A stretch of DNA of 64,000 bases. It comes from Mucilaginibacter oryzae. GTDB taxonomy: Bacteria > Bacteroidota > Bacteroidia > Sphingobacteriales > Sphingobacteriaceae. Below are positions 18,622-30,874 of the stretch, piece by piece. Position numbers and translations under genes: made by a program. Numbering within the stretch: position 1 is the stretch's first letter; each line of letters begins with the position of its first letter. Location: NCBI RefSeq assembly GCF_003148845.1, contig NZ_QGHA01000002.1:272572-336571 (forward strand), read 5' to 3'. A model generated the notes under the pieces. The model saw only the letters and a program-made list of their open reading frames with translations. It was not told where the DNA came from and made no database searches.

Positions 18622-21567
18622 ATGAAGATTTTTACAAACTCAATTAAGATAATTGTGCTTTTCCTGGTACTGTTACCGGGCCTGGCTTACGCGCAATTAA
18701 ACGGCTCATACATTTTAAGCGGAAAGGTAAACGACGACCAGGGTAAGCCGCTGGTAGGGGCAACCGTATCCATTAAGGGTACTACCAATAAAACATCAAC
18801 CGATACAACGGGTAAATTCTCGTTAACCACCAGCGCCAAGTTGCCATATACTCTGGTTTTTAGCGCCATAGGCTATCAACCACAGGAATTTTATATTAAA
18901 AATGCTAACAGCGCGGTCAATATCACATTAACCACGCAATCATTACTGGTTAACGAGGTGGTGGTTACCGCCTCGCGCAAGGAGGAAAAGCTGCTCCGCT
19001 CGCCGGTAGCAATCGAAAAGCTGAGTATTACAGCGCTGAAGCAATCGCCCGGCCCGAGTTTTTATGATGCTTTGGAGAATGTGAAAGGCGTACAGATGAC
19101 CACCACCAGTATCACCCTCAAAGTGCCCAATACCCGTGGCTTCAACAGTCCCAACAACTTTAGGTTTATGCAATTGGTTGATGGCGTGGATATGCAGTCG
19201 GCAACCTTAGGTGTACCGCTGGGTAACGCCATTGGGCCAACCGAACTGGACATTGCCAGTTTGGAAATCACACCCGGTGCTGCCGCCGCCCTTTATGGTA
19301 CCAACGCTATCAACGGTTTATCAAATTTGTTTACTAAAGATCCTTTCAAATACCAGGGGCTAAGCGTTTACCATCGGCAGGGTTTAAACCACGTTGGTAA
19401 AGACAGGTTGGGTGCGAGCACGTTAACAGAGGATGCTTTCAGATATGCCAAAGCATTTAATGATAAGTTTGCCTTTAAAGTGAATTTCAGCTACATGCAA
19501 GGCCAGGACTGGCAGTCGGACACCCGTAACGATCAAAATCCAACCAATCTGAAATCGGCCAACCCTGCCTATCCTGAATTAACCGGAACAAGCAACGCGG
19601 CTTACGATGGCTGGAATAAGTACGGTGATGACGCTCTTGCAGGCAGTAATACCGTTACTATTAAAGGTATAACAGTTGATGGTAAAGCCCGCCCCAATTT
19701 ATTGGTGGCCCGCACAGGATATAACGAGGTTGACCTGGTTGATCCGCACGTAAAAAACCTGAAACTGGATGGTACTCTGGCTTATAAACTATCGCCAACC
19801 ACTACGCTATCATATACTTACCGTTATGGTAAGCTGGATGGCGTATTTCAGCGCGGTAATAAAATTTCGTTACAGGGCGCTACCGTACAAAACCATAAAG
19901 TAGAGTTGAAAGGGAAGGACTTCCTGGTGCGTGGATATGAATCGATAGAAAATACCGGCAATTCGTTCAACGTAAAACCACTGGCCGATAATCTCGACCT
20001 GAACCATGCGAGCAACTCGGCCTGGGCAACTTTATATGGCAATGCATTAAAAGCTTATAATGGTGGCGTTTTAACATCGGCCAACCTGGCTGCTGCCGAG
20101 CAAGCCGCCCGTGCAGCTGCTGATAAAGGCCGCGTGGAGCCGGGTACGCCTGAATTTGATGCCCTGCGCAAAAAGATTATCGGCATTAACAACTGGGATA
20201 TCAAATCGAGCCTGATCCCGAACGCGCCTGCAACCGGTGGTGCCGCTTTATGGCAAAAAAGCCATATGTACAATGGCGAAGCCCAATGGGATTTAAGTAA
20301 TAAAGTAAAAGTTGTCGACCTGTTGGTGGGTGCCGATGTACGCGTGTACAGCATCACGCCGGATGGTAACAACTTTGTTGATTTTACCCGCCCGATAGCC
20401 GACCGTAATACACCGCTTGCTGATGGTAGTTTTGGTAAAGACGTGATCTACAAAAAGTATGGCGCTTTTACGCAGGTTACCAAAACCTTTTTTGATGAAA
20501 AACTTAAACTATTCGGCTCTATCCGCTGGGACCGTAACCCATACTTCGATCCTAAGTTTACACCGCGTTTGGCTGCGGTTTATACTGTTAACCAAAACCA
20601 CAACTTCAGGTTTACCTTCCAGAATGGCTACCGTTTCCCGTCATTGTTCGAGGCGTTATCGTACGTAAATAACGGCAGGGTAAAACGTGTAGGCAGCCTG
20701 CCGTTTATTAACGAAGGTTTGGGTTACTTAGGCAACAGCTATACCCAAACATCCGTGGTAGCATTTAATGCCGCCGTAAATGCTGCAGGAGGTAGCGACC
20801 AGGCCGCGTTGGCTAACCGTAACCTGTTGCAGGTTGCTGATTTGCCTCCCGCCCGCCCGGAGCAGATCACCTCGTACGAGATCGGCTATAAAGGCATTGT
20901 TGCAGATAATAAGGTGTTTATTGATATTGATGCCTATACCAACCGGTACGATGGTTTCCTTGGCCAGGTTCAGGTGTTTGTACCTAATGGCGTTACCGTG
21001 GGGTCGGACGCCGCTGTATTGGCCATGCTTGATATTAACCGCGACCCGACAACCGGCACTTCCAGTAACGCGGCCAGCCAGGGCCAGAGCCGTTACCGTG
21101 TGTACACCAATGCCAAAAACATTTATCACAACTACGGCTCATCCGCGGGTATTACCTACAATTTTTACCAACACTACACCATTTCGGGCAACGTGAGTTT
21201 TAACAAGCTGAAAGCCCAAAAAGCTTCTGATATTTTCGTAACGGGCTTTAACACGCCGGAGTGGTCGGGCAACATATCATTCGGTAATCGCGAGGTGGTA
21301 AAAAACTTCGGCTTTAACGTAGTTTATAAATGGCAGCAATCGTATCTGTGGGAAAGTCCGCTGGTTACCGGTACCGTGCCGTCTATCAAAACGGTTGATG
21401 CGCAGGTTACTTACCGGGTACCGCAATACTACGCAACATTTAAGGTTGGCGCTACCGATATCTTTAACAAAAGATATTACCAGTATGCAGGCGGACCAAC
21501 CATCGGCGGCCTGTACTATGTATCGGTTACACTTGATGGGTTGTTAGCGGGCGATAACAATAAATAA
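18622..21567 (+). CDS. TonB-dependent outer-membrane receptor
   Basis: An outer-membrane active transporter of 981 residues. It has a signal peptide (ending ...GLAYAQ), a carboxypeptidase-regulatory-like domain (SGKVNDDQGKPLVGATVSIKGT, about residues 33-110), a plug domain (EVVVTASRKEEKLLRSPVAIEKL onward) and a 22-strand barrel ending YYVSVTLDGLL. No SusD partner follows, so it is not a classical SusCD glycan importer. The poly-Cys leader ORF, and its position next to the sulfate-assimilation operon, suggest uptake of a sulfur-containing nutrient. The substrate is not readable from the protein alone. Confidence 0.9.
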   Translation: MKIFTNSIKIIVLFLVLLPGLAYAQLNGSYILSGKVNDDQGKPLVGATVSIKGTTNKTSTDTTGKFSLTTSAKLPYTLVFSAIGYQPQEFYIKNANSAVNITLTTQSLLVNEVVVTASRKEEKLLRSPVAIEKLSITALKQSPGPSFYDALENVKGVQMTTTSITLKVPNTRGFNSPNNFRFMQLVDGVDMQSATLGVPLGNAIGPTELDIASLEITPGAAAALYGTNAINGLSNLFTKDPFKYQGLSVYHRQGLNHVGKDRLGASTLTEDAFRYAKAFNDKFAFKVNFSYMQGQDWQSDTRNDQNPTNLKSANPAYPELTGTSNAAYDGWNKYGDDALAGSNTVTIKGITVDGKARPNLLVARTGYNEVDLVDPHVKNLKLDGTLAYKLSPTTTLSYTYRYGKLDGVFQRGNKISLQGATVQNHKVELKGKDFLVRGYESIENTGNSFNVKPLADNLDLNHASNSAWATLYGNALKAYNGGVLTSANLAAAEQAARAAADKGRVEPGTPEFDALRKKIIGINNWDIKSSLIPNAPATGGAALWQKSHMYNGEAQWDLSNKVKVVDLLVGADVRVYSITPDGNNFVDFTRPIADRNTPLADGSFGKDVIYKKYGAFTQVTKTFFDEKLKLFGSIRWDRNPYFDPKFTPRLAAVYTVNQNHNFRFTFQNGYRFPSLFEALSYVNNGRVKRVGSLPFINEGLGYLGNSYTQTSVVAFNAAVNAAGGSDQAALANRNLLQVADLPPARPEQITSYEIGYKGIVADNKVFIDIDAYTNRYDGFLGQVQVFVPNGVTVGSDAAVLAMLDINRDPTTGTSSNAASQGQSRYRVYTNAKNIYHNYGSSAGITYNFYQHYTISGNVSFNKLKAQKASDIFVTGFNTPEWSGNISFGNREVVKNFGFNVVYKWQQSYLWESPLVTGTVPSIKTVDAQVTYRVPQYYATFKVGATDIFNKRYYQYAGGPTIGGLYYVSVTLDGLLAGDNNK

Positions 21568-21597
21568 GCGCTTTTATTACGTTTTATATTAGTTTGT

Positions 21598-21632
21598 AAA
21601 GGGATGCGGCGATATGCTTCATCCCTTTTTTT
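21598..21632 (+). terminator. Intrinsic terminator of the TonB receptor gene
   Basis: Stem AAAGGGATG / CATCCCTTT with a 13-base loop, followed by a run of seven T residues. Confidence 0.75.
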
Positions 21633-21638
21633 ATTTCC

Positions 21639-21862
21639 GGGATTACACGGTTTTTGATTACACCGATTTCGTTTTTTTGATTACACCGATTTATTTTAGA
21701 ATTACACTGATTATTTGATTACTCCGATTTTTTTATTTGTTTTTTGGGATTAATGGAAGTTAATTGAAATCAAATTGGCCGTACACGATTGACATTCTAT
21801 CAATTCTCATAATTCCCAAATTCGGGTTCAGACAAGAAAATCGGTGAAATCACTCTAATCAA
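21639..21862. repeat. Short-word long-hairpin repeat (locus d)
   Basis: Four copies of the word GATTACACCGATTT (with variants) between 21641 and 21735. A complementary version, AAATCGGTGAAATCACTC plus TAATC, ends at 21860. The inner right half (ATCAATTCTCATAATTCCC then TTCAGACAA) resembles the right arm of locus e. It fills the gap between the convergent receptor and cysH genes. Confidence 0.65.
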
Positions 21863-21875
21863 AAAAAACAACAAA

Positions 21876-21912
21876 ATAAAAAAGGCCAACCGATCTCTCA
21901 ACCAATTGACCT
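21876..21912 (-). terminator. Intrinsic terminator of the cysH operon
   Basis: On the minus strand: stem AGGTCAA / TTGGCCT (one wobble) with a 16-base loop, followed by a T-rich tract. It lies 24 bases past the cysH stop. Confidence 0.55.
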
Positions 21913-21936
21913 ACGTATAAAAAAAGCGTCTTTAAC

Positions 21937-22647
21937 TTACTTGGCGGTCACTTCGTGCAATCCGCATTCCTTTTTGGATTGATCTTCCCACCACCATCTT
22001 CCGGCCCTGAAATCTTCGCCTTCTGCTACGGCACGGGTGCAGGGCATACAGCCGATGCTCGGGAAACCTTTATCATGCAGCGAATTGTAGGGGATGTTAT
22101 ATTGTTTAATATAAGCTTTTACCTCATCTAAAGTCCAGCTAAAAATGGGGTGGAACTTTACCAGTTGATTTTGCTCATCCCATTCCGTATCGTGCATATC
22201 GTGGCGGTTGGCTGACTGTTCGGCACGGATACCGGTAATCCAGACCCTGTTGCCTTTTAAAGCGCGTTTAAGCGGTTCTATTTTGCGGATGCCACAGCAT
22301 TCCTTACGGTTCTCTACCGATTCATAAAAGCTGTTCGGGCCTTTTTTGCTTACCATTTCTTCCAGCAATTCGTTGTTAGGGTAGTAGGCATGGATAGGCT
22401 TTTGGTACCTGTTTAGGGTAGCGGCCCAAACCGAATAGGTTTCGCGGAAAAGACGGCCGGTTTCCAGCGTGAATACCTTAATCGGCAGGTTATTTGCGAA
22501 GATCATATGGCTGATCACCTGATCTTCCCAGCCAAAGCTGGTGGAGAAGATCACTTCTTTCGGATATAGTTCAGCGAGTTTGGCGAGTGCCTCAACGGGG
22601 CCAAGCCCGCCTATTTGTTGCTGTATATTTTCTAAAGCGAAACTCAT
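21937..22647 (-). CDS. cysH: Adenylylsulfate (APS)-type sulfate reductase CysH
   Basis: Reduces activated sulfate to sulfite in assimilation. The 236-residue protein has the PP-loop-like FSTSFGWEDQVI start. The Cys-Cys (KECCGIRK) and Cys-x-x-Cys (IGCMPCTR) motifs bind a 4Fe-4S cluster and mark the APS-reducing class, not the cluster-free PAPS class. The C-terminal KKECGLH carries the nucleophilic cysteine. It is the last gene of the sulfur operon, and its start overlaps the end of the fusion gene by 4 bases. The sulfate-activating genes cysD/cysN are not in this window. Confidence 0.93.
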   Translation of the reverse strand: MSFALENIQQQIGGLGPVEALAKLAELYPKEVIFSTSFGWEDQVISHMIFANNLPIKVFTLETGRLFRETYSVWAATLNRYQKPIHAYYPNNELLEEMVSKKGPNSFYESVENRKECCGIRKIEPLKRALKGNRVWITGIRAEQSANRHDMHDTEWDEQNQLVKFHPIFSWTLDEVKAYIKQYNIPYNSLHDKGFPSIGCMPCTRAVAEGEDFRAGRWWWEDQSKKECGLHEVTAK

Positions 22648-24152
22648 GGAATTTTAACGAAAAATTTAAGAATAGAACGGATGCTGATGAGGATCACAAT
22701 CACAGATACAGCAACCATAATAGTTTTAGCCGAGATTTTGTTAGAGATGCGCGCTGCGATAGGAGAGGCCAAAGCGCTGCCCAATACCAGGCCTGCCACA
22801 GAATGCCAGTTATGACCATTAACCATGGCCACAAAGGTTATAGAACCAACCATCGCCACAAAAAAACGGGATAGTTTAACTGTGCCCAGCGAGAAACGGG
22901 GACTACGGCCCCCGGCAATTAACGTTGATAACACGATTGATCCCCAACCGCCGCCACCAACAGCATCAATAAAACCGCCGCCTAAGCCAAGCAGTGAAAT
23001 GCGTTTTACTTTATCTGCCGATTTTTTCTTTTTGGTGTTGAATGCTTTTCTGAATATTACAATGCCCAGTATCAATGTATAAAGCGATACAACCGGTTTG
23101 GTATACATGGCATAATGTTCAAGTGATGAAAGGATGTAGGCTCCTAAAAATGCGCCAATGATGCCCGGTACAACCAAAAGCTTAAATAATTTCCAGTTGA
23201 TATTACCCATACGGTAGTGCATCCAGCCTGCTATACCGCAACTCATTACTTCAGACAGGTGTACACCCATACTTGCCGCTGCCGGAGGTACGCCCATTGT
23301 TAACGAAAATGAGGTTGAGGTTACGCCGTACGACATACCGATGGCCCCATCTATCATGGCAAACAAAAATCCCGCTCCTAAAAAGTAATAAAACATTGGG
23401 TCAATGCCGCTTACAAAGGCCTTAAAGTTTGGCTCTTTAAAGTACAGCGCCGTAATCCCGATGGCTAAGGATAAAACAATGGTTGACCAGATTAACCAGA
23501 TGAGGCCTTTTTTATTGGGGGCTTTGGGCTCAACCAGCACGGCGGTTACATTATTCAGTTTTTTTACCTTGTCGGCAAAGTCGCCTTCAAGGGTGTTTCT
23601 CAGTTCGCTCATTTGCTGTAGGGTAGTATCAAGTTCAGCAGGAAGGCTTTGATTCAGTACTTCTTTTAACCGTTTAGCTACGGTTGGCGATTTACCGTTG
23701 GTTGATATGGCCAGTTTCAGGTCGCCCTTTTGCACAATCGATCCTAAATAAAAATCGCACAGCGCGGGTTTATCGGCTACGTTAATCAGTAATTTGCGGT
23801 CGTGAGCCGCGTTGCGTATGTAGTTGTTCAGCTCACTATCGTTGGTAGCAGCGATAACGATATCTGCATCGTTCAGATCATCATCGGTAAATGATTTTTG
23901 CACAATGCGAATGCCGGGATATTGGGCCGCGAGGCTATGAACTTCGGGCAAAAACTCGCGCGAGATTACGGTTACCCTGGCATGGTGGCTGTTATTGAGC
24001 ACCGCGGTAAGTTTTTCCAAACCCACATTGCCGCCGCCAATAAGCACGGTGTGCAGGTTATTCAGCTTCAAAAAAACCGGGAAAAGCTGGTTGCCATCCC
24101 GTTTCTGGTCCTGAATATTGGTTAAACTATTATCCCTGGGTAACAACGTCAT
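22644..24152 (-). CDS. Fusion protein: siroheme synthase (precorrin-2 dehydrogenase) domain plus TSUP/TauE-SafE transporter
   Basis: A 502-residue two-part protein. Residues about 20-205 match the CysG N-terminal domain, which oxidises precorrin-2 and inserts iron to make siroheme: NAD-binding VLIGGGNVGLEKL, then DADIVIAATND and VADKPALCDF. Residues about 215-502 are a TSUP-family membrane transporter with about eight helices and the motifs AMIDGAIGMSYGV and GFIDAVGGGGWGS, a family that moves sulfite, sulfate or sulfonates. The reading frame is continuous, so this is a real fusion. It overlaps cobA by 23 bases and cysH by 4. It plausibly links cofactor supply and sulfur-anion transport in one polypeptide; the transport direction is unknown. 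Confidence 0.9.
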   Translation of the reverse strand: MTLLPRDNSLTNIQDQKRDGNQLFPVFLKLNNLHTVLIGGGNVGLEKLTAVLNNSHHARVTVISREFLPEVHSLAAQYPGIRIVQKSFTDDDLNDADIVIAATNDSELNNYIRNAAHDRKLLINVADKPALCDFYLGSIVQKGDLKLAISTNGKSPTVAKRLKEVLNQSLPAELDTTLQQMSELRNTLEGDFADKVKKLNNVTAVLVEPKAPNKKGLIWLIWSTIVLSLAIGITALYFKEPNFKAFVSGIDPMFYYFLGAGFLFAMIDGAIGMSYGVTSTSFSLTMGVPPAAASMGVHLSEVMSCGIAGWMHYRMGNINWKLFKLLVVPGIIGAFLGAYILSSLEHYAMYTKPVVSLYTLILGIVIFRKAFNTKKKKSADKVKRISLLGLGGGFIDAVGGGGWGSIVLSTLIAGGRSPRFSLGTVKLSRFFVAMVGSITFVAMVNGHNWHSVAGLVLGSALASPIAARISNKISAKTIMVAVSVIVILISIRSILKFFVKIP

Positions 24153-24915
24153 AAACCTCTTTTATCAGTTGAAATTTAGGGTGTAACGATACCACTTCAC
24201 CCAAAACAATAATGGCTGGTGATGAGATATTGTGTTCTTGAGCAGCGCTGACGATGGTATCAACGGTACCGACAGCAACTTTTTCGTTCTCGGTCGACCC
24301 GCTTTGAATTACGGCTACGGGCAGTTTATTTTTGCCTTGCAACTTATATACTTCGGCAATCGCGGCAAGTTTATGGATCCCCATCAGCACTACCACGGTA
24401 GCGTTTGAACGCGAGGCTTCGATCAGGTCGTCAGAGATCTTACCGCTGGCAGTAGTGCCCGTTACTACCCAAAAGCTTTCGCTTAAGCCCCTGTGGGTAA
24501 GCGGGATCTGCTGCAATTCGGCGACGGCTATGGAGCTTGAAATGCCCGGAACAACACACGCCGGGATATTATATTCGGCAGCAACAATCAGCTCCTCATA
24601 TCCCCGACCGAATACAAAGGGATCGCCGCCTTTTAACCTCACTACATGCCCGTAGTTCAGGGCGTAATCAACCATCAGGTTGTTGATAGCTGCCTGCGAA
24701 AAAGAATGGTCGCCCGAACGTTTGCCTACGTAAACCTTGGTAGCTGTTTCGGGAGCATAATCCAATATTTCTTCATTAACCAGGGCATCATATAAAACTA
24801 CATCGGCCGTTTTTAATGCTTTAATGGCTTTTACAGTGATCAGGTCGGCATCGCCCGGGCCTGCGCCTACTAAGGTTATGCGTGGTTCTTTTATGTTTTT
24901 ATTAGTATCTGTCAT
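24130..24915 (-). CDS. cobA: Uroporphyrinogen-III C-methyltransferase
   Basis: SAM-dependent methyltransferase that makes precorrin-2, the first committed step to siroheme, the cofactor of the reductase encoded next to it. At 261 residues it has the length of the single-domain (CobA/SUMT) form. Motifs are LVGAGPGDADLITVKA near the N terminus, DALVNEEIL, and RLKGGDPFVFGRG in the middle. Its start overlaps the reductase stop by one base, and its end overlaps the fusion gene by 23 bases, so translation is probably coupled. Confidence 0.96.
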   Translation of the reverse strand: MTDTNKNIKEPRITLVGAGPGDADLITVKAIKALKTADVVLYDALVNEEILDYAPETATKVYVGKRSGDHSFSQAAINNLMVDYALNYGHVVRLKGGDPFVFGRGYEELIVAAEYNIPACVVPGISSSIAVAELQQIPLTHRGLSESFWVVTGTTASGKISDDLIEASRSNATVVVLMGIHKLAAIAEVYKLQGKNKLPVAVIQSGSTENEKVAVGTVDTIVSAAQEHNISSPAIIVLGEVVSLHPKFQLIKEVYDVVTQG

Positions 24916-27005
24916 TATTGTACAAGCGCCTCTCTCTTATTCTTACTTCTGCTTAAAAAATCTGTGGCCTGCGCCAGGTATGTTGTGGCAAATTCCTGCG
25001 AGGGCTCGTTTTGGTTGATCTGTAGTACCAGGTCGTTAAATGTACCCGCCAGTTCAAATTCGCCTTTTTCAACGTATTGGGCATCAAATTCGCGAATCAC
25101 ACCGATCTGTGTGCTGCTGTTTACCCCTTTATCCAGCAGCAATGCTTTGGCCGAGCTTACAAATACGTTGTAGGCATGGTAAATTGCATCAGCCCACCGG
25201 CCGTCAGCAAAGGCGTCATTGGCCCAACCCATTTTCTCTTCAGATTCGAAGAGCAGCGTAGCAACCAGGTCTATCACAACGCCGGCGCACTCGCCAACGC
25301 CGATAGCGGTAACAAAGGTTTCCTGGTGGCCCCAGTCAATATATTCATCGTCGGTCAGGGTGGTCAGATCAGCAAGCGGTTTCAGCAGGCGGTAAAAATA
25401 ATCTTTACCTTGCCTGTCGTAATATTGGTGGTAAGTTTCACCCTCCGGCGAAAACGCTTTGTAATCATTTAATAACAAACGAAGCACATCAGTAGCACGT
25501 TTGGTAGGCACTTTAATTACCCGCTCGGCAGCACGGCCAACACCATCGCCTACGGTTCCGCCGCCCAGCATTACCTGTACAGAGGGCAATACTTTGGTGC
25601 CGGCTTTTAATGAACTTCCGTGGAAACCGATATGGGCCAAACCATGCTGCCCGCACGAGTTCATACAGCCGCTGATTTTGATCTTGATCTCGCGGTTGTA
25701 TATAAAATCTTCATATTCGTTGTAAATCAGGTCTTCCAGCACACGGGCCATGGTCATGCTGTTCGAGATCCCGAGGTTACAGGTATCTGTACCCGGGCAA
25801 GTGGTAACGTCGGCAATGCTGTCAAAGCCTGGCGCGGCCAACTCTAATTTGGCCAAACCTTCGTACAAAGCAGGCAACGCTTCTTTACGAACATATTTTA
25901 ACAGCAAGCCCTGGTTTTGGGTAATGCGGATTTCGTTACCAACCAATGGCTCCAATGTTTTAACTAAAGCGCGGGCGGTGTCTGATGAGATATCACCTAC
26001 AGGCACTTTAATATATACGCCGTAAAAATCTTTTTGCTTTTGCTCAAACACGTTGGTAGCCAACCATTGCTCGTAGCGCAGCGGGTTGCCTATAGTTACT
26101 TCCGGATAGGTATCGGTAGGTGGCAGGGCAGGGGCATCAACGGCATCGCGGTTAATAGGGTAAGATTTTACTTTGTTGGCGGTGCGTTCAATCCGGGTTA
26201 AGCGCAATACCTCTTCCAACCCAAGTTTTTGGATCAGGTATTTCATCCGGGCCTTGTTACGGTTGTTGCGTTCGCCGTACCGGTCAAAAACACGGATCAC
26301 CGATTCGATGTAAGGGATCAGTTGATCCTCGGGCAAAAACTCCTCAACAATATTGGCCAGGATAGGCTGCGCGCCTAAACCGCCGCCCAGCATAATTTTA
26401 AAGCCCCGCTCCCCTGCAGCATTTACCTTAGGGATGGCGCCAATATCATGAATATAAGAGAAAGCGGTATCCTCATCGCTTGATGAAAAGGCTATTTTAA
26501 ACTTACGGCCCATTTCCTGGCAAATAGGGTTGCGCAAAAAATAATCGAACGTAGCATAGGCGTAAGGCGAAACATCAAATGGTTCTTTTGGGTCGATGCC
26601 GGCGGTTGGTGAAGCTGTTACGTTACGTACGGTATTGCCGCAGGCTTCGCGTAGGGTAATATCATCCTGCTCAAGTTTTGCCCAAAGTTGGGGCGTACGG
26701 TCAAGACTAACATAATGGATCTGGATATCCTGGCGGGTTGTAAGGTGCAGGTTGCTGCTGCCAAACTCGTCAGATATTTCTGCTATTTTGAGCAATTGCT
26801 TAAAGCTAACCTTACCAAACGGGAGTTTAATACGCACCATTTGTACGCCCGGCTGGCGCTGCCCGTATACGCCGCGCGCCAAACGCAGGCTCCTGAACTT
26901 TTCATCATGTATTTTGCCTTCACGAAAAGCACGGATCTTTTTTTCAAGATCGATGATATCCTTCTCAACAATGGGGTTCTCCAGTTCGGTTCTGAAGCTT
27001 TGCAT
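24915..27005 (-). CDS. Siroheme sulfite/nitrite reductase with C-terminal HEPN-like domain
   Basis: Reduces sulfite to sulfide (six electrons) with a siroheme-4Fe4S centre. The cluster ligands are Cys403 and Cys409 (TCPGTDTCN) and Cys447 and Cys451 (GCMNSCG). The two reductase half-domains fill about 1-530. The remaining 160 residues, including AIYHAYNVFVSSAKALLLDKG, look like the HEPN domain found on many Bacteroidota reductases of about 700 residues. The CysH and siroheme context favours sulfite over nitrite. It is the first gene of the operon, after a leader with a poly-Cys ORF and a terminator. Confidence 0.93.
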   Translation of the reverse strand: MQSFRTELENPIVEKDIIDLEKKIRAFREGKIHDEKFRSLRLARGVYGQRQPGVQMVRIKLPFGKVSFKQLLKIAEISDEFGSSNLHLTTRQDIQIHYVSLDRTPQLWAKLEQDDITLREACGNTVRNVTASPTAGIDPKEPFDVSPYAYATFDYFLRNPICQEMGRKFKIAFSSSDEDTAFSYIHDIGAIPKVNAAGERGFKIMLGGGLGAQPILANIVEEFLPEDQLIPYIESVIRVFDRYGERNNRNKARMKYLIQKLGLEEVLRLTRIERTANKVKSYPINRDAVDAPALPPTDTYPEVTIGNPLRYEQWLATNVFEQKQKDFYGVYIKVPVGDISSDTARALVKTLEPLVGNEIRITQNQGLLLKYVRKEALPALYEGLAKLELAAPGFDSIADVTTCPGTDTCNLGISNSMTMARVLEDLIYNEYEDFIYNREIKIKISGCMNSCGQHGLAHIGFHGSSLKAGTKVLPSVQVMLGGGTVGDGVGRAAERVIKVPTKRATDVLRLLLNDYKAFSPEGETYHQYYDRQGKDYFYRLLKPLADLTTLTDDEYIDWGHQETFVTAIGVGECAGVVIDLVATLLFESEEKMGWANDAFADGRWADAIYHAYNVFVSSAKALLLDKGVNSSTQIGVIREFDAQYVEKGEFELAGTFNDLVLQINQNEPSQEFATTYLAQATDFLSRSKNKREALVQ

Positions 27006-27027
27006 ACTGAATGTATTAATATTTTAT

Positions 27028-27059
27028 AAAAAAGCCCCTTTGGCAATAGCTAAAGAGGC
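27028..27059 (-). terminator. Attenuator terminator in the sulfite reductase leader
   Basis: On the minus strand: stem GCCTCTTT (27059-27052), 10-base loop, AAAGGGGC (27041-27034), then TTTTTT. It ends 23 bases before the reductase ATG, so it would abort the operon unless prevented. The upstream leader repeats the 3' arm (AGGGGC at 27091-27086), which can pair with GCCTCT and block the stem. Confidence 0.8.
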
Positions 27060-27080
27060 GTATATGGTTAAAAGTTACGT

Positions 27081-27161
27081 TTATAGCCCCTGAGTTTTGT
27101 TGCACATGCAGCAACAGATCAACAGGTTAACGTAAATTTGATGAATTCTCTCACTATTCAT
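27081..27161 (-). CDS. Cysteine-rich leader peptide of the sulfite reductase operon (26 codons)
   Basis: ATG at 27161-27159, TAA at 27083-27081. Codons 16-20 read Cys-Cys-Cys-Met-Cys (TGT TGC TGC ATG TGC); the peptide ends NKTQGL. The ATG is only 4 bases after the -7 box, so the transcript is probably leaderless. A ribosome stalled at the first Cys codons would leave AGGGGC (27091-27086, codons 24-26) free to pair with the terminator's 5' arm. A ribosome that reaches the stop would cover it and let the terminator form. The codons and complementarities are seen; cysteine-responsive attenuation is inferred. Confidence 0.75.
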   Translation of the reverse strand: MNSERIHQIYVNLLICCCMCNKTQGL

Positions 27162-27192
27162 TTCCCAAATATATATATAGTATACGGAAATG
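27159..27192 (-). promoter_or_regulatory. Promoter and palindromic operator of the sulfite reductase operon
   Basis: The -7 box TATATTTG (minus strand, 27173-27166) lies between the arms of CATTTCC - 20 bases - GGAAATG (27159-27165 and 27186-27192). No good -33 TTG is seen, which fits an activator-dependent or weak promoter. The palindrome overlapping the start region could bind the Rrf2 regulator encoded upstream. Confidence 0.5.
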
Positions 27193-27246
27193 GTAGCATT
27201 TTATTAAAAAAAACTGCGTTATGACAGTTTGCTGAAGTTTTGAAAT

Positions 27247-27681
27247 TTAAACGCTGATGAGGGTACTTTCTCGTTTGATGATATCGGCGATGCTGGTTTC
27301 GCTTAATATTTTGAGTGTGGCATCCCTTACATCAACAAATACATCCCTTATGCCGCAAGTGCTTTCCTGGTGGCACTCATCACATTTATGGTAAAAATTT
27401 AAGCTCGCACAGGGAACCATGGCTATTGGCCCATCGGTAATACGCATAATACTTACCAGGAATATTTCTTTTGGGTCGCGGTTTAGGCTGTAGCCGCCAC
27501 CCGCGCCTTTTTTACTGTACAAAAAACCGGCGTTACGAAGATCAAGCAGGATCTGTTCGAGGAATTTTTTAGGGATGCGCTCTAACTCGGCGATCCTGGA
27601 TATTTGCATAGGCGGCTGATCCATGTTTTTACCCAATACCACAAGCGCCTTTATTGCATACTTAGTTTTTTTCGAAAGCAT
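27247..27681 (-). CDS. Rrf2 family transcriptional regulator
   Basis: A 144-residue winged-helix regulator of the IscR/CymR/NsrR family. The N-terminal DNA-binding domain begins MLSKKTKYAIKALVVLG and includes the recognition region ISRIAELERIPKKFLEQIL and the wing KKGAGGGYSL. The C-terminal half has four cysteines (CASLNFYHKCDECHQES, then CGI) that could hold an Fe-S cluster or sense thiols. It lies directly upstream of the sulfite reductase operon on the same strand, so it is the best local candidate regulator of sulfur assimilation. CymR-type members do that job in Firmicutes; here it is inference. Confidence 0.92.
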   Translation of the reverse strand: MLSKKTKYAIKALVVLGKNMDQPPMQISRIAELERIPKKFLEQILLDLRNAGFLYSKKGAGGGYSLNRDPKEIFLVSIMRITDGPIAMVPCASLNFYHKCDECHQESTCGIRDVFVDVRDATLKILSETSIADIIKRESTLISV

Positions 27682-27699
27682 TTTCTATAATAAAACTTA

Positions 27700-27707
27700 C
27701 AAAGTTA
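27700..27707 (-). promoter_or_regulatory. -7 promoter box of the Rrf2 gene
   Basis: Minus-strand TAACTTTG fits TAnnTTTG, 18 bases before the ATG. No clear -33 element. Confidence 0.45.
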
Positions 27708-27805
27708 AATAAAGATATTACTAAACTAACGATTTTTTCGAGTAATATTATAGATTATATAGAAAGCATATTTTATACAGACTTAATTTTATCAAAATGA
27801 TAAAA

Positions 27806-28081
27806 TTAACGGTCGGAATGGCCAATACTTTTGCCCGGTGCAACCTTATCCCTAACGGCCTGTTTTAACGCTTTTATTTCGGGAAAATACCCGTCGCGCT
27901 TCCTGTCGAACAAGATCTCATGATCAACGCTGATGGTATATCTGCCGCTTACTTCGCTGGGTACAAGCGTTACGCCATGCACATCATCAGTAAAGGTAGT
28001 AAGCAATTCCTGCGCCATATAGGCAGCCCGCATCATCCAGTTGCACTTAGGGCAGTATTCTATGGTGATGTTTGGTTTCAC
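27806..28081 (-). CDS. SelT/SelW/SelH-like (Rdx) thioredoxin-fold protein
   Basis: A 91-residue cytoplasmic protein with the family CxxC redox motif near the N terminus (ITIEYCPKCNW, Cys10 and Cys13) and the GRYTISVDHEILFDRKRDGYFPE core typical of the Rdx fold. Bacterial members use cysteine in place of selenocysteine, as here. The function is probably thiol redox, but the partner is unknown. It sits between the MOSC gene (18 bases upstream) and the Rrf2 gene, on the same strand. Confidence 0.88.
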   Translation of the reverse strand: MKPNITIEYCPKCNWMMRAAYMAQELLTTFTDDVHGVTLVPSEVSGRYTISVDHEILFDRKRDGYFPEIKALKQAVRDKVAPGKSIGHSDR

Positions 28082-28099
28082 GCTGTTTTGGCTGGTTTT

Positions 28100-28924
28100 T
28101 TATTTAATGATAAACCGCTCTTCGGTATGTTGACTCAGTACCTTAAGTTCATCGCCTACCGAGATTGTTCCGGTATTTTCATGCACCAGGTTTTGCCCGA
28201 ACATGATCTTGTTGTTCTTCATCCGGTAGGAGGCAAGGGTTTTTAAAGGTTCTTTAGCTTTTGCCGCCGTTTGCTGATCAATAGTGGTCAGCACGCAGCG
28301 TGCGCAAAGCTTGGTTCCGTAAAAGGTAATGCCTGCTATTTCTATCCGGTTCATTAAATCTTCGCTGTATGCCCCGCCGCCGGTAAAAACTATATTGGGG
28401 CGAAAGCGATCCATCGGCAGGGGCAACGCCATGCGTTTGTTCAGGTCGTTTAAGGATGCCTGGCCTATCAGTAAAAAAGGGTAAGCATCAGCAAAAGAGG
28501 TGATCATGCCGGGTTGGGCATAGCGCTGATCCACTTCGCGCTCGCTGTCATCGGGCATATAAACCAGTCGGCATTTGATTCCGAGGGTTTCGGTGAACCA
28601 ATCATCAATCTCGTCATTAACATATTGACCCATACAGATATCATCCCAAACAGCAAATTGATGGAGGGGCTTTTTCTCGATATCAAAAGGAACTAACACA
28701 TTATTGCCACTTTGAGCGATAACCCGAATACCTGCTTCTTCAATAGCCGTTTTAAGCAAAGCCATGTTGGCAAATTCGCGCTGGGTCATGAAATGGCCGT
28801 GTTCATTCACCAGCATCCAGCGCCTGTCGTATTGTAAACCGCGGGTGGTGACTTCTGCACTTTGCAGGGATATACCCCCGAGGGATTTGATGGGATAGAT
28901 GAAGAGTTGGCTGATCTGGAGCAT
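28100..28924 (-). CDS. MOSC domain protein, YcbX-like
   Basis: Molybdenum-cofactor sulfurase C-terminal domain protein. The MOSC beta-barrel N-terminal domain begins LQISQLFIYPIKSLGGISL and the MOSC core contains the conserved cysteine segment TKLCARCVLTTID. YcbX-type proteins carry Moco and reduce N-hydroxylated compounds with an electron donor; no ferredoxin domain is fused here. I place the start at 28924 (MLQIS...), because the 33 codons of the longer frame are out of character and extend into a repeat. The product is 274 residues. Confidence 0.88.
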   Translation of the reverse strand: MLQISQLFIYPIKSLGGISLQSAEVTTRGLQYDRRWMLVNEHGHFMTQREFANMALLKTAIEEAGIRVIAQSGNNVLVPFDIEKKPLHQFAVWDDICMGQYVNDEIDDWFTETLGIKCRLVYMPDDSEREVDQRYAQPGMITSFADAYPFLLIGQASLNDLNKRMALPLPMDRFRPNIVFTGGGAYSEDLMNRIEIAGITFYGTKLCARCVLTTIDQQTAAKAKEPLKTLASYRMKNNKIMFGQNLVHENTGTISVGDELKVLSQHTEERFIIK

Positions 28925-28949
28925 GTGCAAAAATATGATTTGTGGTTTG

Positions 28950-29048
28950 TTGTCTGAATCAGAATTTACAGAATTATGGAATTTTAGAATACCCGAACAT
29001 CCATCAATTCTGTTAATTTTCAAATTCTATAAATTCGAGTTCAGACAA
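28950..29048. repeat. Short-word long-hairpin repeat (locus e)
   Basis: The ends are perfect: TTGTCTGAA (28950-28958) and TTCAGACAA (29040-29048). Inside, both arms use the words GAATTTA and AGAATT. Mismatches recur at regular positions. It lies in the divergent gap between the MOSC and GMC genes, so it cannot be a terminator for either. Confidence 0.8.
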
Positions 29049-29164
29049 AATGATGGATTTGTTAATTTTCTCAATCGATTGCAATAATTAATTTAAATTG
29101 ATATACTTGTTTTAACCAATTCCTACAAACCGATCTTTTTAATTAAATAACCTAAAGTAATATT

Positions 29165-30874
29165 ATGCCATCAACCAATATAAACGGCAAGGCTAAAGAA
29201 AACAACACGTACGACGCGATTGTGATAGGCTCGGGCATCAGCGGGGGCTGGGCTGCCAAAGAACTCACCGAACTGGGCCTTAAAACCATTATGCTTGAAC
29301 GCGGGCGAAATTTTGAGCATATTAAAGACTACAAAACTGCCAGCCAGGATCCGTGGGACCGCCATCATGCGGGTTCGCCAACGCAGGCCCAGCGTAAAGA
29401 GCGCCCCGTGATATCACGTAACTGGGGCGCCTACGAGCCTATTATGGATTACTGGACAGACGAGCAGGCGGCTCCTTATACCGAGATCAAACCTTTTAAC
29501 TGGTGGCGATCGTACCAGTTAGGAGGCCGTTCCATTTTATGGGGAAGGCAAAGTTACCGCTGGAGCGATTTTGATTTTGAAGCCAACGCCAAGGACGGGT
29601 GGGCGATAGATTGGCCTATCCGCTATAAAGACCTCGCGCCATGGTATGACCATGTGGAGAAGTTCGCGGGCATCAGCGGTTCGCTGGAGGGGTTGCCCCA
29701 ACTGCCCGATGGCCATTACCTGCCGCCCATGGATATGAATGTGGTAGAAAAAGATGTGGCTGCCCGCATCAGGAAAAATTACAACGGCACAAGGCACATG
29801 ATCATTGGTCGTACGGCTAATTTAACGGCGGCTATCCCGGGCCGTACGGCTTGCCAGTTCAGGAACCGGTGTTGGGAGGGGTGCCCGTTTGGCGGGTATT
29901 TCAGTACACAATCTTCAACTTTACCTGCCGCTGTGGCTACAGGTAATTTGACGGTAAGGCCATATTCCATCGTTACGAAAATCTTGTATGATAAAGATAC
30001 GAAGAAGGCAAAAGGAGTGGAGGTGCTGGATGCCGAAACCAATCATACCTATGAGTTTTATTCAAAAATTGTGTTTGTAAATGCTTCGGCCTTAAACAGT
30101 GCCTGGGTGCTGATGAACTCGGCTACCGACATCTGGCCCGATGGTTTGGGCAGCAGCAGCGGCGAGTTGGGTCATAACATTATGGATCATCACTATAACC
30201 TTGGTGCAAGCGGCCTGGTTGAAGGCTTTGAGGATAAATACTATTATGGCCGAAGGGCTAACGGTATTTATATACCGCGTTTCACCAACTTGTTTGGCGA
30301 TAAGCGAGATTACCTGCGTGGCTTTGGCTACCAGGGCGCGGCAAGCCGTATGGGCTGGAGCCGGGAAATTGCCGAATTAAATATAGGGGCTCAATATAAA
30401 GAAGCGCTAACGGAACCCGGTCCATGGACTATCGGCATCGGCGGTTTCGGGGAACTGTTACCTTACCACGAAAATAAGATCACGCTTGATAAAACCCGTA
30501 AAGACAAATGGGGCTTGCCCATTTTGGCCATGGATGCCGAAATCAAGGAAAACGAAAAGAAAATGCGTTTTGACATTGTTCGCGAGGCTAAAGCGATGCT
30601 GGAAAGCGCCGGGGTTAAAAATGTTGAAACACATGATCGCGGACATAACGTTGGCGACGGCATTCACGAAATGGGAACCGCGCGCATGGGCCGCGACCCT
30701 AAAACTTCGGTGCTAAACGGCAATAACCAGGTTTGGGATGCCAAAAACGTTTTTGTTACCGATGGCGCCGCTATGACTTCATCGGCCTGTCAAAACCCGT
30801 CATTAACTTATATGGCCATGACCGCGCGCGCTGCACATTTCGCTGTAGATGAATTAAAAAAAGGGAATATATAG
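29165..30874 (+). CDS. GMC family FAD-dependent oxidoreductase
   Basis: A 569-residue flavoenzyme of the glucose-methanol-choline family, the group that oxidises sugars or alcohols at a C-OH. FAD-binding motif IVIGSGISGGWAAKEL near residue 20, substrate and FAD loop GGRSILWGRQSYRW, and the C-terminal catalytic region with EMGTARMGRDP followed by VFVTDGAAMTSSACQNPSLTYMAMT. No signal peptide or TAT motif is visible. It is followed, after a repeat, by a ThuA protein; GMC and ThuA pairs are common in Bacteroidota sugar-catabolism loci. Substrate unknown. Confidence 0.92.
   Translation: MPSTNINGKAKENNTYDAIVIGSGISGGWAAKELTELGLKTIMLERGRNFEHIKDYKTASQDPWDRHHAGSPTQAQRKERPVISRNWGAYEPIMDYWTDEQAAPYTEIKPFNWWRSYQLGGRSILWGRQSYRWSDFDFEANAKDGWAIDWPIRYKDLAPWYDHVEKFAGISGSLEGLPQLPDGHYLPPMDMNVVEKDVAARIRKNYNGTRHMIIGRTANLTAAIPGRTACQFRNRCWEGCPFGGYFSTQSSTLPAAVATGNLTVRPYSIVTKILYDKDTKKAKGVEVLDAETNHTYEFYSKIVFVNASALNSAWVLMNSATDIWPDGLGSSSGELGHNIMDHHYNLGASGLVEGFEDKYYYGRRANGIYIPRFTNLFGDKRDYLRGFGYQGAASRMGWSREIAELNIGAQYKEALTEPGPWTIGIGGFGELLPYHENKITLDKTRKDKWGLPILAMDAEIKENEKKMRFDIVREAKAMLESAGVKNVETHDRGHNVGDGIHEMGTARMGRDPKTSVLNGNNQVWDAKNVFVTDGAAMTSSACQNPSLTYMAMTARAAHFAVDELKKGNI

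Follow-up and report, generated by a model that had tools for sequence, protein, structure and literature searches.

In the stretch of Mucilaginibacter oryzae DNA analysed here (64,000 nucleotides, hereafter the window, from a genome of 5.94 Mb), the operon for assimilatory sulfite reduction is very probably governed by a trp/his-type transcription attenuator that is mediated by the ribosome and responds to cysteine, a reading to which a probability of about 0.88 is assigned from the sequence and its comparison with relatives. Ahead of the first operon gene lie a short ORF carrying a run of cysteine codons, an intrinsic terminator and segments that can form 1:2 and 2:3 pairings; the arrangement recurs among relatives, and its ORF and terminator tend to be lost together.

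The sulfite-reduction operon and its leader

The operon comprises the following genes:

24915..27005, minus strand: NirA/Sir-type siroheme reductase, first gene of the operon, under the cut-off of every NCBIfam model matched
24130..24915, minus strand: uroporphyrinogen-III C-methyltransferase (TIGR01469, 276.9 bits, cut-off 185)
22644..24152, minus strand: siroheme-synthase N-terminal domain at residues about 24-194 (TIGR01470, 122.9 bits, cut-off 62.3)
21937..22647, minus strand: APS/PAPS reductase, cysH (NF002537, 263.9 bits, cut-off 154; TIGR02055, 248.6 bits, cut-off 235.3)

Sulfite is inferred as the substrate of the reductase because cysH belongs to the same operon; the closest named match to the reductase is that of Mucilaginibacter endophyticus (96%). 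The C-terminal half of the siroheme-synthase fusion (22644..24152) appears by eye to be membrane-protein-like. The leader and its promoter region have the following parts:

27166..27198, minus strand: conserved promoter stretch with the -7 box at its downstream end (sequence, and consensus over 137 leaders)
27173-27166, minus strand: -7 box TATATTTG (direct reading)
27165-27162, minus strand: GGAA between the -7 box and the start of the ORF (direct reading)
27081..27161, minus strand: leader ORF MNSERIHQIYVNLLICCCMCNKTQGL, 26 codons, from ATG 27161-27159 to TAA 27083-27081 (sequence; similarly placed Cys-rich ORFs in relatives)
27102..27116, minus strand: control codons TGT TGC TGC ATG TGC, Cys-Cys-Cys-Met-Cys, codons 16-20 (direct reading)
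27123..27135, minus strand: segment 1, UUACGUU (27135-27129) and CCUG (27126-27123) (lowest-energy fold; permutation test)
27082..27091, minus strand: segment 2, the decoy AGGGGC (27091-27086) and UAUA (27085-27082) (sequence, fold, permutation test)
27049..27064, minus strand: segment 3, UAUAC followed by GCCUCUUUAGC, terminator 5' arm and partner of the antiterminator (folding)
27059-27049, minus strand: terminator 5' arm GCCTCTTTAGC (direct reading)
27034..27044, minus strand: segment 4, GCCAAAGGGGC, terminator 3' arm (folding)
27028..27033, minus strand: U-tract of the intrinsic terminator, six T (direct reading)

The decoy is contained in codons 24-26 of the leader ORF, and TATT forms the terminator loop between GCCTCTTTAGC and GCCAAAGGGGC. 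The -7 box, the 26-codon ORF, its cysteine run and the AGGGGC motif were all found where a first-pass annotation of this DNA had placed them, as was a terminator with six T before the reductase; the spacing of 23 bases given there is corrected to the 22 that separate the last T from the reductase ATG (beginning at 27005).

Predicted transcription start and mode of action

The promoter consensus over the 137 leaders is ttctacnattTccnTATAntaTnTATATATTTG, the last 17 bases of which also served to place the box. In Flavobacterium psychrophilum, the box TAnnTTTG is described as spanning -12 to -5 (PMC9723704), which would set the AUG of the window at +1; on this geometric placement, the leader AUG is predicted to coincide with the transcription start, that is, to be leaderless. 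The same source puts leaderless mRNAs at only 5.5% in that species (PMC9723704). Among the 92 Cys ORFs, the start codon stands exactly 4 nt past TTTG in 37 and 0-25 nt past it in the remainder. Were the sensing AUG indeed the first codon, the ribosome could load once the 5' end emerges, with no Shine-Dalgarno site.

The trp/his scheme combines control codons with alternative 1:2, 2:3 and 3:4 pairings. For the window, we infer a start of transcription at the ORF, its translation, coupling of the two processes, stalling, kinetic pre-emption of the terminator and a response to cysteine. RNA polymerase would start at about 27161, and a ribosome would begin at the AUG on or beside the 5' end. With ample Cys-tRNA, the ribosome would pass Cys-Cys-Cys-Met-Cys and run to the stop codon, covering the decoy; after its release, the 1:2 stem would sequester the decoy and the 3:4 terminator would form. 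With scarce Cys-tRNA, stalling at codons 16-20 would cover segment 1 and disrupt the 1:2 stem, and the decoy thus freed would pair with segment 3 before segment 4 is made, so that the terminator would be pre-empted and the operon transcribed. As two hairpins, one "off" and one "on", are open to the leader RNA, the cysteine-making genes would be expected to be read mainly under cysteine scarcity.

Conservation among relatives

Alignment of the leaders of relatives had been proposed beforehand as a test of the attenuator, and its result mostly favours it. The leaders compared came from 80 of 94 genus-mate loci, 80 named loci (24 of them repeats) and, from elsewhere in the class, 40 of 54 non-genus loci, giving 177 distinct leaders with the window included. 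A terminator was found no more than 110 nt from the gene in 126 of the 177, and 100 of these 126 also carried a short ORF with CC or CxC, compared with 9.4 expected from dinucleotide shuffles of the pre-terminator segment searched with the same picker, a comparison in which the leaders, being related, do not amount to independent trials.

The genus and its nearest named relatives supplied 137 leaders, which were examined under a looser terminator rule. Terminator and CC/CxC ORF occurred together in 90, the terminator alone in 23, the ORF alone in 2 and neither in 22. Some cysteine persists in the ORF of 17 of the 23 terminator-only leaders (for example, MYCHMYGN), the other six (L025, L074, L077, L079, L108, and L119) having no Cys ORF. 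When any Cys ORF is accepted beside the terminator, 107 of the 137 leaders bear an attenuator and 30 do not; the former figure includes L132, probably a false positive that qualified on one Cys and a weak terminator. L108 (65 nt) and L119 (60 nt) are short leaders that have kept a hairpin with its U-tract, as if an attenuator were decaying there.

On the best tree of the 137 reductases, the attenuator changes at least 15 times, 11 of these changes being forced by well-supported branches. Across 11 independent pairs, terminator and CC/CxC ORF were concordant in 6.0, opposite in 0.1 and without difference in 4.9 (median p 0.03, range 0.008-0.45); with any Cys accepted, the corresponding values were 5.1, 0.0 and 5.9 (median p 0.06). 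The earlier expectation that the cysteine run and the terminator would be conserved among orthologous leaders is thus borne out by the comparison of 137 leaders and by the tree, with a tendency towards joint loss. Fifteen of the 24 terminator-less leaders are only 35-99 nt long and all 24 retain the promoter-like box (scores 14-19), as would be expected if the insert separating promoter from gene had been lost.

The cysteine codons themselves bear on the nature of the signal. That the Cys-rich ORF senses a metal, the redox state or the nascent peptide itself, and not charged tRNA-Cys, is very improbable, albeit with some points in its favour. A copper-responsive leader with a CC motif occurs in Bordetella, and vicinal Cys residues, such as those that this leader would encode, are able to bind metals. 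Between leader and reductase, an aldo/keto-reductase-like ORF (L168 and L169) or a peroxiredoxin-like ORF (L173) was recognised by eye, so that at these three loci leader and reductase would presumably share a transcript across another ORF. Redox has also been raised for the Cys leaders of mycobacteria (PMC4633059). Against a signal of this kind, only the Cys positions are common between clades (by eye), neither spacing nor peptide sequence being fixed; both codons are used at these positions (TGC 179 and TGT 167 times in the leader ORFs of relatives); and the leaders examined precede sulfite-reductase, cysE-cysK or cysC-cysD genes.

Alternative RNA structures

Folded alone, the terminator hairpin reached -12.9 kcal/mol (3 of 200 shuffles equally good), and the antiterminator, formed by the stretch 27095-27048 on its own, reached -8.4 kcal/mol (13 of 200 equally good). 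When the leader was folded entire, its minimum-energy structure, equalled by 12 of 200 shuffles, contained the terminator together with a 1:2 stem tying up the decoy, an element absent from the first-pass annotation, in which UUACGUU (27135-27129) pairs with AACGUAA (27081-27075) and CCUG (27126-27123) with CAGG (27092-27089). The antiterminator folds when segment 4 is missing or shortened; upon removal of segment 1, 27095-27026 and 27104-27026 still fold as the terminator. Since equilibrium favours the terminator (-12.9 versus -8.4 kcal/mol), the 2:3 pairing must form kinetically, before segment 4, and this excess of the terminator over the antiterminator at equilibrium counts slightly against the attenuator model.

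The weaker antiterminator would also suit control at the level of translation or by Rho, the hairpin being incidental, as in the poly-Cys leaders of mycobacteria, which are without conserved terminators (PMC1262725) and are called translation attenuation (PMC13236596) in the passages cited. Such control is very improbable for the leaders considered here, given that the hairpin and its U-tract are present in 113 of the 137 leaders (looser threshold) and tend to vanish together with the ORF.

Returning to the attenuator, the pairing of the decoy with the terminator side was examined by permutation of partners. Best pairings averaged -14.4 kcal/mol when a decoy was set against the terminator side of its own leader, compared with -11.4 kcal/mol for permuted partners, giving z -9.6 over 74 clusters (0/2000 as good), -5.4 in the 45 of Mucilaginibacter, -6.3 in the 29 from elsewhere and -4.2 in a CTTCAG subgroup of 17 (1/2000). 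Reversed decoys gave z -3.3 (0/2000), -1.5, -3.3 (2/2000) and +0.5 in the same order of sets, and reverse-complement decoys -0.2, -0.4, +0.7 and -0.2. The proposed pairing of decoy and terminator side therefore holds in that decoys match the terminator side of their own leader better than that of permuted ones, with part of the signal ascribed to shared composition because reversed decoys beat permutation too. Segments 1 and 2 also matched better within a leader than after permutation: z was -6.8 (85 clusters; 0/2000 as good), with further values of -3.7 and -5.5, and the reversed controls gave, in the same order, -2.5 (23/2000), -2.4 and -0.4, so that part of this signal is likewise shared composition. 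When single decoys were dinucleotide-shuffled, no signal emerged: p<=0.05 was reached by 10 of 100 leaders and the median z was -0.5, this being a weak test because the shuffles retain GG and GC steps.

The covariation check proposed earlier for the alternative stems had a mixed outcome. In one Mucilaginibacter clade of 17, 93% of the antiterminator cells were paired and a two-sided change was seen in 4 of 17 at one pair, a slight degree of compensatory change column by column; the pair counts were modest, the observed values being reached by 31 and 29 of 500 shuffles, and sliding the partner by +3 columns gave an equal covariation score with just 66% of cells paired. The pair counts of the 1:2 stem in this clade were not above those of shuffles. 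In a Pedobacter clade, where the counts are without control, the terminator paired in 17-19 of 19 leaders per position and an AGAGG/CTTCT decoy in 15-19 of 19, with mostly one-sided changes; a 1:2 pairing tried there was poor in its inner part (1-16 of 19 per position) and reached 12-18 of 19 in its outer part. The partner of the decoy also varies, being the outer arm in the clade of the window; in the CTTCAG clade it is CAGCCRC, which belongs to the inner arm and the loop.

The footprint of a ribosome is assumed to extend about 12-15 nt ahead of its decoding site. In 67 of the 68 leaders with a good helix, the decoy starts at a median of 24 nt (quartiles 22-27) past the first Cys nucleotide; its centre lies at a median of 4 nt past the start of the stop codon, and in 56 of the 67 the decoy is located between -12 and +15 nt relative to the stop. 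Well-conserved columns in the Mucilaginibacter alignments comprise the start codon, parts of the Cys codons, the decoy and the terminator, and the absence of any further conserved block there, along with an Rfam search of 20000-30000 that returned no family at its gathering threshold, leaves next to no likelihood for a riboswitch, T-box or protein-bound attenuator working the terminator with the ORF as a by-product, even if a terminator with a competing structure suits any attenuator and a CymR-like Rrf2 gene (below cut-off) adjoins the leader. The sub-threshold Rfam matches were poor and far below gathering scores, the best having E 1.1 on the strand of the leader and E 0.22 on the opposite one, and the riboswitch reading was dropped. 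Overall, the comparison supports the attenuator originally proposed, as refined by a possible 1:2 stem, a clade-specific decoy partner, an AUG at the predicted start and a kinetic antiterminator.

Specificity and spread

A strict rule, specific rather than sensitive, called for closely clustered Cys codons within an ORF of 8-45 codons and a terminator 5-75 nt after its stop. Run over both strands of the 177 loci, 1.96 Mb in total, it returned 45 matches, all upstream of the reductase and on its strand, and none elsewhere; 41 lay at most 420 nt upstream and four (L168, L169, L173, and L184) farther upstream. Outside the family, the attenuator was found at 18 of 35 loci sampled, spanning 11 families, and two ORF-plus-terminator modules stand in series before the reductase at 5 of 40 non-genus loci (L171, L175, L177, L178, and L185).

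Cys leaders with terminators were also seen before cysE-cysK at 3 of 30 cysE-model loci (L276, L284, and L288; cysK named by eye, and none of the 30 at the model cut-off) and before cysC-cysD at 1 of 30 cysD loci (L261; cysC named by eye). Next to the cysDN and cysE-cysK of the host genome itself, neither inspection nor the strict scan of L232-L240 revealed a Cys leader. A covariance model built for the leader, whose final structure consists of 10 terminator pairs only, recovered 7 reductase leaders at E < 1e-5 in 21 genomes; 12 weaker matches were inspected and set aside, one being a Thr leader and the rest not resembling Cys leaders. In the host genome, the reductase leader scored E 2e-17 and the next match 0.74, with further copies possible because just 150 of 3557 first-look candidates were scored.

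These occurrences raise a broader proposition, namely that the cysteine regulon of the class Bacteroidia is run by leaderless poly-Cys transcription attenuators, in which the sensing AUG is the first codon and which stand in tandem in some lineages; the case for and against it appears evenly balanced. If it is true, tandem attenuators before one operon may give a steeper or two-step response, and the Bacteroidia leaders would form a convergent counterpart, acting on transcription, of the leaderless poly-Cys leaders of mycobacteria.

Relation to known systems

Cys-run leaders without terminators have been predicted in Actinobacteria (PMC1262725), ribosome occupancy was found on those of mycobacteria (PMC4633059), and the mycobacterial poly-Cys leaders are cysteine-responsive according to Canestrari et al. 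2020, as cited in PMC9031893 and PMC13236596. They share with the present leader a short ORF with a Cys run, a leaderless start (predicted here), a position before cysteine-related operons and cysteine-responsive attenuation (proposed here); they differ, as far as the cited passages describe them, in phylum, in having no conserved terminator (PMC1262725) and in acting by translation attenuation (PMC13236596), whereas the window has an intrinsic terminator with alternative stems.

The uORFC-8-2 motif, which was predicted as a terminator-bearing Cys-Cys leader ahead of cysS in Rhodobacterales (PMC8632094), resembles the window leader in its described features: two tandem Cys codons (usually 14-15 there), stems, a U-run terminator and the same proposed logic. 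It belongs to Alphaproteobacteria and to a cysteinyl-tRNA synthetase gene, in contrast to the reductase that follows the leader of the window and, more widely, to Bacteroidota sulfur assimilation, cysE-cysK and cysC-cysD. Leaderless leader peptides feeding intrinsic, Rho-independent terminators have been described in Streptomyces lividans (for example, trpL1, leuL2, and ilvL; PMC8079986), an actinobacterium, with no cysteine leader among those described in the part of that source cited.

The trp/his attenuators of Proteobacteria have in common with the present leader the control codons and the 1:2, 2:3 and 3:4 pairings, and differ in starting from a Shine-Dalgarno sequence, in contrast to the AUG at the predicted +1 and the cysteine signal proposed here.

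For Bacteroidota, the passages cited offer clues for attenuation before amino-acid biosynthesis operons in Flavobacterium psychrophilum (PMC9723704) and short ORFs in long 5' UTRs (PMC7366714), neither naming a cysteine leader; a 2010 paper regarded leader-peptide systems outside Proteobacteria and Actinobacteria as not known before its own Firmicutes case (PMC2965389). In the open literature searched, subscription papers and supplements lying outside its scope, no cysteine attenuator in Bacteroidota was found, in agreement with the first-pass annotation, which knew of no established case. Each ingredient thus has a precedent, and the phylum, gene set, class-wide spread and tandem form appear to be new in that literature, where leader-peptide attenuation in Bacteroidota has so far been a matter of clues in the parts cited. 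If the attenuator reading is true, it would provide Bacteroidota with an attenuator that is defined, can be tested and answers to a clear signal, and would extend leaderless leader peptides feeding a terminator beyond Actinobacteria. Its tandem, decayed and different-decoy clades would furnish natural variants for studying how ribosome position leads to the termination decision where translation initiation is reported to dispense with Shine-Dalgarno sequences, as in these bacteria.

Neighbouring regulator and a further leader

The Rrf2 regulator gene lies upstream of the leader at 27247-27681 on the same strand, its best specific match being CymR, below cut-off. An Rrf2 gene is present upstream on the same strand within 2.5 kb at 79 of 137 loci, comprising 54 of the 107 attenuator-bearing loci and 25 of the 30 loci without an attenuator. 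The bases ahead of the -7 box are conserved, as ttctacnattTccnTATA... over the 137 leaders and nncnacnattTccnTATA... over the 24 terminator-less leaders, and may possibly constitute an operator for the Rrf2 protein.

At positions 26-91 of L222 (contig 35 of the genus-mate genome G006), a Thr/Ile-rich ORF, MTINNTTIITIITTGINFGGR (hand-translated), is followed by a terminator and precedes an ORF that is aspartokinase-like by eye, the arrangement of a thrL-like attenuator in Mucilaginibacter.
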